From: Branchiostoma floridae
Taxonomy: Eukaryota; Chordata; Leptocardii; Amphioxiformes; Branchiostomatidae
DNA: 64,000 nucleotides
Reading direction: 5' to 3'
Assembly: GCF_000003815.2 (NCBI RefSeq)
Contig: NC_049993.1
Span: forward strand, 7,007,207-7,071,206
Shown: piece after piece, positions 43,175 to 63,603 of the stretch
How the letters are laid out: each line of letters opens with the position of its first letter
How positions within the stretch are numbered: position 1 is the stretch's first letter
The notes under the pieces: model-generated
The model's database searches: none
What the model was told of the DNA's origin: nothing
The model's input: the letters and a program-made list of their open reading frames with translations, nothing else
Made by a program: the position numbers and the translations under genes

Positions 43175-46100
43175 ATGATGGCGGCCTTGTGTGCCGCGCT
43201 GATCCTCGCAGCTTTCCACCACACTACAGGTAAGATTGTTGCGTCATTTTTCAAAACTCAGAACGGCAACATGTACACTAGGCACGGCCGTGCTAAACTA
43301 ACCGCTTCATTGACGTTGTTTCTTGGCAACGTTCAAAAGCATCCATCGGGGAACCACAGTGTACGGTAGATGCATTGTTATGGTTGTGAGGAAAACACAT
43401 TTAATCGTGGGAAACTCATTCTTCTGAAAGAAGATGGCATGCTGTGTACCTCTTCGTGACCTACCGCTTAGTGTATAAGAACTATGTTTCTTAACTCAGC
43501 CTTAAAGTTGAATAATTGTAAATATTTCTGTAGCCATTGGAAAATGTCATCTTTTTGTATATTGGAGATGTTACACAAGTTTCAAATGATGGACTGCGTA
43601 TTTCTAGGATACTTTACAACAGAAAAGTCCCCCTTAAGAAGGTATATGCACACTTGATCCATTTACGTGCCATGGATGGCAAATATTCATCCCCGGTAGA
43701 GAAATCGATCAATCGGAAACGTTCGGGTGCCAATAAATAACGACTGGCGTTCCCCGCTGCCGTTACGAAGTGTGAAAAACGCCCCACATAAGCCATGTAC
43801 GGGGTCACTGTTCTCCATCAATTCAGGATTATACCGGCCCGATTTCCCCACAGATTAGCGTGGGTTTCGATTGTCCATAATGTCTTCATGCGTTAAGGCT
43901 GATTTGGTCCTGTTCGGTTGCCAGGAAAGAGGAGAATAATAGGGCCAAAATGTGACGCATTTGTTTAGGTTAAATGAAATCTGTACTGCATGTACCTCAT
44001 ACTATTTGATGATGGATGTTTGATACTTAAAGTCGTGATTTTATCTTTATAACAGTCAAACACAATGTTTGAAGCAATCAACTGTACTTAAAGATGTGTG
44101 TTATGGATCAGAACAGACAGATCCCATGGCCCCGCCCACTTCGGTTAACACAAAGAAATGCATAATGAGAATATAGATCTAGAAATGCGCGAAAATGACC
44201 AATATATAGCCACGCACTCTCTCGTTAAATGTTAACTTTTGCTGCAGGAAATGTGTCTTAACGTACGTAAAGATAACCCTTATTCCGGTCTGTCAGACTT
44301 ACTGACAATCAAAGCTATATACCCTTAACCATAGTTACGCATAACGTTGGAAACAAAACGAGTTGTTATTTACCATGTCGATGAAAGTTAAATACTTGTT
44401 GTTGATGATATCTTAACGTTTCTGGTAACTCTGTCATCTTTGTGGCAGCGATGGGCATTGTTTGATGAAGAGAAAAGGCCTACAGGGTGCCCCAAGTCAC
44501 CATTGACCCCTGACGATCGAGCCGCCCAGGTTATGTTGTGTATAAGTCTTCCCGTCCAAGTTTTGGGAGTTGCGTGCCGCCGTTGAGGGTAACGATTGAT
44601 CGAGGCTGCAGGTTTTTAGCGAACGACCCTCTATCGATCGCTGAAACCAATTCGTCACCCAAACCCTTTCCGTAGTTCTAGTCGCTACACGGGAATTGGG
44701 GGTAACAATTCATTCCGGTCGAGTGGGATCCGGACGAAAAATCACAGGGCGGCTTGCTCAGCGAAACATACATCGGTGAAACATTCACTGAAGCTTGCGG
44801 AAAGGAAGACGCAAAGCTGCTACACTAAAAGGGCTAAATCCGCAATTTACCTTTAATTTCCGACATTTCAAGATAAGCCGTTAACATCGTTGCATGCGGA
44901 CTTCCTGTTGGAGTGCTTTTAGAATCAGTGACGGGCGTTAACTATCGCGCGCTGAGTTTGATAATAACTTCTCTCTGCTCTTTCATTTACTACTTGGCTG
45001 CGTTTGGTGGCGTTTGCAGCAATCGTAACTAATTACGTCTACGGTCTACTTCGCCTACTGTGCAAAGACTGAGATCCAGCAATGTGAAGCACACGATAGT
45101 GTGTGTGGGCGTCCACAGGGGGGAGGGATAGAGCTGTCCCTGTATAGACCATAGGCAGCAGTGAGCAAGCTCTATGCTGCCACTGCCTGTGTCAGGTTAT
45201 TCCTCCTGTCGGGCGGCTGAGCCAGTCAAAGATGGATGGAAGTCATTATTGCCGTAATTGGCATCTTGTCTCGGGGCAAGGCTCGCAGGCAGGCTAGAGG
45301 ACGGGAAAATTAGAATTGCTCGTGACCGTCCGAGGTCGTAACAGCCCGCATATTGGCGACATGGAAGTATTACTTATGATCTTGTTCTGTCGTGCGGAAA
45401 GACCCGGACGGCGCGCCGCAGGGAAAATTGCCTGGCCTTCTTCGAAATGCCTGTACGGCTAGCTCAAAATAGAGAGATATCGAGTTTAAGGAATAATCTT
45501 TTACATGACAGACTTAAAAAATTGTCCAGTTTGCATACCATTAGTTGTACTACAGTTATGACGATTAGTTAAAAATACTTTGTGCCGATCTCTCTTTCAA
45601 AAGCCCTTGGGCCACACCGTGGTGTAAGCACGCGAAATTACAGTGGGAGACTGGCTCACTCGTAGTAACTCCCACATTCTTTCCCATTTGTGAAGATAAG
45701 CTACAAACTTAAGAGAATAGTAAATTTGAATTAAATCCACGACAAGAGCTATTCATTAAGATTCTCTACGACTAGTCAGAAACTCTTCATGGTTAACCGA
45801 TTAAGAGAAAAGTAATATATTGCAAACTCGTCTTACTCACTTCCATACAGATATTAATCCTCCATAAAGTTGTAACCTTTCGCAGCCTGAGCCAGTCCTT
45901 AATTAACAGTCCCGTACGAGTGCATAGACCGCAGAATTTTAATCAACGAATATCATGGTAAGATTAACAGTGGTGTTGACAACCTCACTGTGCTGTCATC
46001 TACATGCATACACGCAGTCTGAGTAAAGGTGTATGTTTCTCATTTTTACCGCAGCAATTACAGAAATTAAAACACGATGCAGGCGTCACAAATTGCTTAG

Positions 46101-62500: not shown

Positions 62501-63603
62501 TCCTCGTAATTATTTAAGATTTACAATTTCACTTCAATTCAATTCAATCCTGAATTTCTATCATTGCGTTTGAATCATTCATTCCCAACCTATGAAAAAG
62601 CTACTTTCCATTTTACCTTTCGGGAACATGTTATGCCGGCGCCCTGGAGCGTTACAGACAGAATCTTATCACAGAAGAAGCACTCAGCTGTCACATTTCT
62701 CATTCCTTCCGCTACTCAGGAGGAGATTTTGGCTGAGTGCTGACAAACTTGGTTGGCGACGGAGTGGCTTACAAAGTTTGGGTGGACCGCACTCAGAACG
62801 TATTACTGTATGTGGCATGACGTGAGAGTACCGATCCCATTAGATGCGTTTCTGTCTGATGCACACAAACTGAATACGGATTTTTCGCACTGTAAACTTT
62901 TCTGCTCAGATAAAATTGTGTCGCTTTTGGGAGATTCCTGTTCATAGTGCTCATCGTTAACAAAACGTTTAAGTCTGTAGATTTAAATCATCTTTGCATT
63001 TAGGTTACTCCCAATTTTATATACCATAATGACAACCATAAGATATCCACGAATGACTGCTGGATAATAAAGGCCTACTTCGAATTTCGCCTAGGGGCGC
63101 GGTCATAAAGGTCATCTGATCGTCGTACGATAGCTAACTTCGGCCATTTTGGAGCACAAAAATGTTCCTCTCCTGCAAAGTTCAAACAAATGATCTTTTG
63201 GATCCATGTCGGTAGTTGGCTCTGTCATGGCCTGCTTGAAAATGCTGTGGCATCAAAATCGTACGACGATCGCACGACCTATGTGACCGCGCCCTAACAT
63301 AGTACTCACAGATAACTCCTACATAGATGCTGTCAGACGTCTTTCCCATTAGGTGCTCGGCCACACAGGAGTAGTTTCCCGTCTGCTCTCGCGAGACTTT
63401 AGGGAGGAACAGCCATGGCGAGTAGTTATCGTCTGATTCCATGTTACCCAGGATGTGGGGGGAGACGTCCTGCAGCTGGTCGCTTTCCCAATATGGCGGA
63501 GAGGTGAGGGCGCTGGTGTAGTTGACGGTGCAGTTCAAGATGACGGACGTGTCTTCCTTTGCGACCACTGGTTTCTTAGTAGTGATCTGGACTATAGGGA
63601 CAA
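59522..63603 (-). CDS. Second Ig-TM-SH3 protein gene, 5' part beyond the right edge (348 aa seen)
   Basis: Four exons on the minus strand, all joined in phase 1: 63603-63310 (Ig, VQITTKKPVVAKEDTSVILNC ... GNYSCVAE, minus-strand donor ATCT|gtgagt), 62183-61875 (Ig, VVLHCIAEGNPAPRVAWYRG ... GQYRCQAS), 60631-60305 (stalk, transmembrane helix GIAAASLCLLLVVLLAGFIF, cytoplasmic part) and 59886-59522 (SH3 and tail). They match exons 3-6 of the plus-strand gene in order, phase and content. The SH3 reads VPYYSHQPGFLSLKIND ... SSGWLYG ... GVFPATCVE. The cytoplasmic part has EFEYIAAQ and VTYQYR, possible phosphotyrosine sites, and the tail is acidic and lacks the Cys cluster of its partner. The signal peptide and the first Ig domain are not in the window. 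Confidence 0.85.
61185..61795. repeat. Tandem duplications of the 3' end of an Ig exon plus the adjoining intron
   Basis: The 3' end of the exon at 61875-62183 (peptide RAVTIVEAAESN) recurs twice at lower coordinates, at about 61578-61650 and 61453-61482, each with the adjoining intron wording (gatgtagctggtgtg, gaagttac). A further block around 61205 (gattgtgtatggttagat) repeats at 61680, 475 bases away. No acceptor is evident for the extra exon ends, so they are probably non-functional. Confidence 0.7.
62264..62348. repeat. Two-copy tandem repeat
   Basis: ttacaaactaacgttataacctgc occurs twice with accacttgtt upstream of each, about 48 bases apart. Confidence 0.75.
63092..63296. repeat. Inverted-repeat (MITE-like) element beside an Ig exon
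   Basis: The left end tagggg-cgcggtcataaagg and the right end (inverse tagggcgcggtcacatagg) match over about 40 bases, continuing into gatcgtcgtacgat. The element is 205 bases long. Its right end lies 14 bases past the donor of the Ig exon ending at 63310. Confidence 0.7.

Follow-up and report, generated by a model that had tools for sequence, protein, structure and literature searches.

In vertebrates, immunoglobulin (Ig) receptors are linked to their effectors by SH3-bearing adaptors, and two genes of the Florida lancelet, Branchiostoma floridae, raise the question of whether an Ig receptor can carry such a domain itself. The genes, A and B, converge on opposite strands of a 64,000-nucleotide stretch of the genome (the window, G000:C15:7007207-7071206, where C15 denotes the contig). 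We hold with high confidence that both are receptors of this architecture and members of a family; they belong to a local group of three or more genes and to a genome-wide family of about fifty candidates. A family with a fused SH3 domain would show an alternative wiring of Ig receptors and allows the contribution of the SH3 step to be tested directly. As clustered, diverged V-domain receptors in the sister lineage of tunicates plus vertebrates, these genes also inform Ig recognition before adaptive immunity.

Gene A (+ strand, 43175-55267) was modelled as six exons (Table 1) that join into an uninterrupted frame of 594 residues, with GT-AG introns and all junctions in phase 1; an AATAAA lies at 55617, downstream of the stop codon. 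The encoded order is a signal peptide, a V-set Ig domain, two I-set Ig domains, one transmembrane (TM) helix and an SH3 domain. Pfam matched the V-set domain at 41.0 bits (cut-off 26), Ig domains 2 and 3 (Ig2 and Ig3) as Ig_3/I-set, and the SH3 domain as SH3_1 (27.6, cut-off 22.9) and SH3_2 (22.5, cut-off 21.8), the SH3_9 score of 29.3 being slightly below its cut-off of 30. An AlphaFold model of this SH3 domain, made from an input alignment of two rows, contained five strands (predicted local distance difference test, pLDDT, 88.6; predicted template modelling score, pTM, 0.68). The signal peptide of A and the topology of A and B were predicted from the hydropathy profile. Gene A showed two hydrophobic segments, one N-terminal and one internal, and the in-window part of gene B showed a single internal one. 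On this basis, the SH3 domains of A and B are predicted to lie on the cytoplasmic side of type I membrane receptors.

Gene B (- strand, 59522-63603) has four exons in the window, with the order and phases of gene A. It appeared shorter than A because its V-set exon (V exon) sits past the window end, at G000:C15:7072702-7073019, approximately 1.5 kb beyond it; this exon is 57.7% identical to that of A and likewise lacks cysteine. The model of B starts at this V exon. The SH3_1 match of B reached 25.9 bits (cut-off 22.9), placing the domains of both genes above cut-off and in the SH3 superfamily. The A and B proteins were 35% identical over 375 residues (expectation value, E, 3e-69), with 38/96 identities in Ig2, 33/90 in Ig3, 9/32 in the stalk, 12/23 in the TM helix, 11/51 in the linker, 28/55 in the SH3 domain and 14/63 in the tail. 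The SH3 alignment scored 173, compared with a highest score of 42 in 2000 shuffles, whereas the linker (24, shuffle mean 24.6) and the tail (26, mean 25.6) stayed within the range of 2000 shuffles, indicating that the SH3 domain has been kept between a diverged linker and a diverged tail. Both proteins terminate inside the SH3 exon, A with QVLD and B with EFCS.

An earlier sequence-only reading of this stretch had described two opposite-strand Ig-TM receptor genes with their own SH3 domain, matching exon order, phase-1 junctions and diverging tails, the complete copy having a signal peptide and a single TM helix. The exon models, the Pfam matches (V-set, Ig_3/I-set and SH3_1), the hydropathy of A and the linker and tail scores bear this out, with the cytoplasmic side of the SH3 domain predicted. 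Its order of Ig, Ig, TM and SH3 also holds for both genes, but its count of Ig domains does not: A has three, the V exon having been overlooked. Within gene B, the 3' end of the Ig3 exon (61867-61955) is repeated in the next intron at 61566-61654 (96% alike), and a weaker repeat, 69% alike to the 61566 copy, lies at 61441-61529; these may reflect a partial duplication that has since decayed, or an alternative end of the exon.

A third gene, C, lies on the - strand at C15:7124495-7131157, approximately 51 kb past the V exon of B, and has all five domain exons. It was read from the V to the SH3 exon. Its identity to B is 87% in V, 81% in Ig2, 68% in Ig3, 60% in the TM exon and 85% in SH3, and exon 5 of A is 53.7% identical to its TM exon over 41 residues. 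Across the genome (513,431,437 bases, 431 contigs), the SH3 exon of L011, a locus on contig C14, found 52 places and that of B 29, while the V exons of L011 and A found 54 and 57, giving 59 SH3 and 62 V places when combined (V pieces less than 3 kb apart were merged). A PF00018 scan, which scored the best 150 of 223 candidates and listed 147 SH3 places, missed the SH3 domain of B itself, and the counts are therefore lower bounds.

A candidate gene was defined as an SH3 exon with a same-strand V exon at most 45 kb upstream and no family SH3 exon between the two. This positional pairing, which yields candidate genes and not transcripts, gave 51: 30 on C14, 11 on C15, 7 on C16 and one each on C2, C7 and C18. 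All 30 SH3 exons on C14 had a V partner. Because the loci are clustered, a uniform null is too lenient, and two controls were therefore run on C14 with 5000 trials each. With random V strands, the number paired averaged 15.3 and never exceeded 26 of the 30; with V exons moved by 60-300 kb, it averaged 5.4 and never exceeded 13, compared with 30 observed. When 149 SH3 places were separately paired with the L011 V matches, 41 of the 52 found with the L011 SH3 query had a partner, compared with just 3 of 96 others, A included.

The whole span from V to SH3 was read at nine loci (A, B, C, L011, L013 and L057-L060, the last four chosen for their short V-to-SH3 distance), and all had the five exons in order. 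At L014, Ig2, Ig3 and SH3 were present, the V exon lay outside the stretch read and the TM exon was not recognised by similarity; L012, L015 and L016, read over 5 kb upstream, showed SH3 alone, the paired V exons being 11-25 kb upstream. A juxtamembrane stretch, KK(R)F(S/A)FYY(N/D)(M/I), was common to six C14 loci (L011, L013, L057-L060). A phase-1 GTR followed within 18 codons of the SH3 domain in 38 of the 40 SH3 exons read on C14, C15 and C16, a loose test because GTR in phase 1 is common and some matches are plainly coding; an additional 3' exon is thus probable in many members. The exons downstream of SH3 in C14 genes showed no convincing similarity among the three loci compared. The family clusters are of mixed orientation, 6 of the 33 pairs of adjacent family members within 200 kb of each other being convergent. 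The inverted pair proposed earlier thus stands as two inverted neighbours and falls as a unit, since about 51 candidates lie in such clusters. Another convergent V-to-SH3 candidate pair like A and B was seen at G000:C15:14883895 (+) and 14889312 (-).

The V-set domain lacked cysteine in the matched part of all 40 V exons read among the 62 places (L093 is partial). The best PDB matches were weak (E about 0.008 to 0.9 for both queries): nectin-1, JAML, CD48 and CEACAM1 for the V exon of A, and TIM, CEACAM, CD226 and nectin-4 for that of L011. The cysteine pair is present in the V domain of nectin-1, where its positions align to Ala and Leu in gene A. In the V tree, A, B and C grouped with L085, L086, L087 and L090 (Shimodaira-Hasegawa-like approximate likelihood ratio test, SH-aLRT, 99). 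Identity of C14 genes to L011 had a median of 69% in SH3 and 44% in V, with SH3 higher in 29 of 29 genes. The V exons of L069 and L070 (C14:3783130-3783520 and C14:3873970-3874360) are near-identical except in the first ~20 residues, as if by gene conversion.

The SH3 domains fell into two groove classes. The canonical groove is given in the accessible text of PMC5823434 as Tyr/Phe8, Tyr/Phe10, Trp36, Pro51, Asn53 and Tyr/Phe54. At these positions, A has I, Y, W, P, A and C and B has V, Y, W, P, T and C; only Y10, W36 and P51 are kept, which is not the canonical PxxP-binding groove, and the RT loop has QPGF instead of acidic residues. Positions 8 (Y/F/H), 10, 36, 51 and 54 were kept in 41 of the 49 SH3 domains read, a tally that includes four without a V partner (L052-L055); the groove was altered in A, B, L054, L056, L094, L095, L097 and L098. 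In the SH3 tree, which was built from a small number of columns and includes two long branches and an L094 of odd composition, one branch (SH-aLRT 93) held A, B, C, L094 (C18) and L095 (C15:14.44 Mb), all with PG in the RT loop and Cys54. The closest solved structures among the PDB matches listed were p47phox, Pin3, Myo1e, SH3PXD2A, CIN85, CD2AP and Grb2, of which p47phox, Myo1e, CIN85, CD2AP and Grb2 are intracellular adaptors.

Tyrosine contexts in the cytoplasmic parts include EKEYFVIP beyond the SH3 domain of A, and EFEYIAAQ and others in B. Judged by eye, neither these nor the C14 juxtamembrane stretch fit the strict consensus of the immunoreceptor tyrosine-based inhibitory motif. The linkers of A and B contain one PxxP motif each; these were considered as cis ligands of the adjoining SH3 domain and dropped as weak. 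In the interval separating Ig3 from SH3 at L014 (C16), the open frame 3620-3880 contains PMPPPAAPPKRS, by eye a PxxPx+ type motif and a possible cis or trans self-ligand for the adjacent SH3 domain. Gene A also has a cysteine cluster, CNCLECRGTGCC, near its C-terminus (residues 565-576; 54788-55264, +), which B lacks and which may be a lipid or metal site.

Selection was measured as the ratio of nonsynonymous to synonymous rates (dN/dS; NG86, gene-averaged) in two pairs of close copies. Between B and C, dN/dS was 0.13 in V, 0.14 in Ig2, 0.13 in Ig3, 0.05 in SH3 and 0.17 over all parts; the SH3 value is rough because dS was 2.0, near saturation, and dS was not computable for the TM/linker and the tail (tail dN 0.75). 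Between L011 and L013, the values were 0.15 in V, 0.13 in Ig2, 0.15 in Ig3, 0.17 in TM and 0.3 in SH3, the last from one change of each kind. Close copies are thus under purifying selection, and the low values point to working genes. Diversifying selection was not seen by this gene-averaged method in either pair.

The architecture has already appeared in print, in Table 2 of a 2020 paper (PMC7286890), which has a row for a Florida lancelet protein with the order IgV/IgC/IgC/TM/SH3. In its available text, the protein is presented as a possible ancient nectin homologue found only in Branchiostoma, with a proposal that its own SH3 domain spares adaptors. A and B share its order of V, Ig, Ig, TM and SH3, and A, B or a sister gene is probably that protein. 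The sequence-only reading had called the family undescribed, which fails because this exact architecture is in print (PMC7286890); its assignment to recognition or adhesion receptors is supported. The protein occupies one table row there, and the available text of the paper gives no accession, describes no gene family and analyses neither the groove nor the arrangement in the genome. A search of the open-licence literature, subscription papers being outside it, turned up no account of a multigene Ig/TM/SH3 family. Older surveys of amphioxus immune genes exist among those. New here are how large the family is and how it is laid out, the absence of V cysteines in every copy read and the two classes of SH3 groove.

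The simplest reading of this layout, we infer, is recognition at the V tip, clustering and direct recruitment by SH3. The cysteine-less V tip would bind a partner on another cell or surface, which may be the same receptor, a sister one or a foreign ligand; this would cluster the receptors, and the clustered SH3 domains would recruit signalling or cytoskeletal proteins directly, with no separate adaptor. Most members, with their normal groove, would take ordinary proline-rich ligands. In the A/B/C branch, the acidic RT loop and the first ALYDY tyrosine are lost and a Cys has replaced the last tyrosine of the groove; this branch would accept a different type of ligand, like yeast Fus1. That A and B belong to a lancelet multigene family of type I receptors and work by the whole of this mechanism seems to us reasonably probable. 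We advance more tentatively the wider proposal of about fifty self-adaptored Ig receptors, in which the receptor's own SH3 domain replaces the phosphotyrosine-adaptor relay of vertebrate Ig receptors and a canonical arm and a Cys54 arm follow different ligand codes.

Several observations weigh against these proposals. The membrane topology of A and B depends on hydropathy. Eight SH3 exons (four on C15, three on C9 and one on C3) and 11 V places remained unpaired, with in-frame stops in 3 of the 11. One Glu remains in the RT loop of L094 and L095, the kin of A and B by SH3. In the alignment, the first ALYDY tyrosine is missing from p47phox SH3A as well, a domain that binds PxxP; loss of position 8 alone is therefore no proof of a non-canonical ligand. 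The dN/dS of 0.05-0.17 in nearly all computable parts is contrary to a fast-evolving immune role.

The gene models come from genomic sequence, and the SH3 domain could in principle come from a separate downstream gene. The recurrence of the five exons in unchanged order at nine loci, the same-strand pairing of 51 candidates and the phase-1 junctions of A and B make such an artefact highly improbable, and the printed protein of the same architecture, as listed in the available text of PMC7286890, agrees with them, although it may itself be a gene prediction. A separate SH3 gene was rejected because the arrangement is repeated at nine loci. Alternatively, the SH3 domain of A, B and C might be a spacer or self-association module with no peptide ligand, as the replacement of three of the six canonical groove positions in A and B (I/V8, A/T53 and C54) and the QPGF of the RT loop would allow. 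We consider this unlikely, given that the smallest dN/dS of the B-C comparison is that of SH3 (0.05, with dS near saturation), that Cys54 and the RT-loop PG recur at C15:14.44 Mb and C18:9.30 Mb, and that Y10, W36 and P51 are retained.

Two further alternatives concern what the V tip is for. The 2020 proposal, as found in the available text of PMC7286890, would make these proteins nectin-like cell-cell adhesion molecules whose SH3 domain replaces the afadin/ponsin link to actin. The V-C-C-like layout and the weak V exon matches to nectin-1, JAML, CD48, CEACAM1, TIM, CD226 and nectin-4 are in line with it; about fifty clustered, diverged paralogues are far above the vertebrate nectin number, an objection tempered by the clustered protocadherins, an adhesion family that is also large. 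The cysteine pair of nectin-1, absent from the 40 V exons read, and the QVLD and EFCS ends, which by eye are not PDZ-ligand-like, also count against adhesion, which we regard as possible without expecting it. In an innate immune or allorecognition family, the V domains would read different ligands and the common SH3 domain would give a common output. The gap between SH3 and V identity on C14 (higher for SH3 in 29/29), the mixed-orientation clusters and the differing N-terminal ends of the L069 and L070 V exons, with their hint of gene conversion, point this way, but the V dN/dS of the two close pairs (0.13 and 0.15) does not, and the 69/44 gap is equally explained by differing baseline constraint on V and SH3. 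We give an immune role the same weight as adhesion, regarding it as possible without expecting it.

Other features lie in or near the window. Three open frames on the - strand (1506-2039, 3754-4404 and 8892-9302) match Zn_ribbon_3CxxC at 62.7 to 67.4 bits, which we take to be a zinc domain of the receptor-transporting-protein type, and a myosin heavy chain gene with motor and tail exons spans about 17839-27641 (+). Beyond gene B, a reverse-transcriptase-like open frame (YADDTAIF, judged by eye) was seen at L010 2124-3011 (-).

Table 1. Exons of genes A and B in the window.
Feature	Position	Strand	Content	Basis
Gene A exon 1	43175..43229	+	Start codon, signal-peptide-like segment MMAALCAALILAAFHHTTG	Phase 1 out, GT donor, hydropathy
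Gene A exon 2	46542..46880	+	V-set Ig domain, zero cysteines	
Gene A exon 3	50173..50469	+	Ig domain 2, I-set type, Cys 156/212	
Gene A exon 4	51671..51988	+	Ig domain 3, I-set, Cys 252/302, plus stalk start	
Gene A exon 5	53310..53603	+	Stalk, transmembrane helix, juxtamembrane linker	
Gene A exon 6	54786..55267	+	SH3 domain, tail, stop codon	
Gene B exon	63310..63603	-	Ig domain 2	
Gene B exon	61875..62183	-	Ig domain 3	
Gene B exon	60305..60631	-	Stalk, transmembrane, juxtamembrane	
Gene B exon	59522..59886	-	SH3 domain, short tail, stop codon	

Compared with known systems, gene A resembles the nectins in its V-set domain, two further Ig domains and one TM helix. Nectins are recognised in the accessible text of PMC7286890 by a C-terminal PDZ-binding motif for afadin or by a band 4.1 motif; the ends of A and B are, by eye, unlike PDZ ligands, and the V cysteine pair of nectin-1 is missing. 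Membership of the nectin family was rejected on the C-termini and the V cysteines. With nectins, CEACAM and TIM-CD226 alike, the lancelet proteins share a V-set tip, more Ig domains, a single TM helix and weak V similarity, but the lancelet tail has an SH3 domain. The proteins MIA, otoraplin and TANGO1 resemble A and B in having an SH3 domain in a protein of the secretory pathway. In TANGO1, the SH3 domain is lumenal, on the opposite side from that predicted for A and B. The SH3 domains of the MIA family are extracellular with two disulfides, according to the part of PMC10453029 available, whereas those of A and B follow a signal peptide and a TM helix in the predicted topology and contain a single cysteine each. 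The contrast drawn with MIA/TANGO1 in the sequence-only reading holds, and kinship was rejected on the predicted topology and on the absence of these proteins from the best 60 of 285 PDB matches. Yeast Fus1 is a membrane protein with a cytoplasmic SH3 domain, and thus, like A and B, carries the domain on the membrane protein itself, with Cys54 in both. Its targets are peptides without PxxP, as stated with the cysteine at groove position 54 in the accessible text of PMC5823434. Restoring the canonical groove residues in Fus1 is reported to bring about PxxP binding. The likeness of A and B to Fus1 is confined to the groove and would be convergent.

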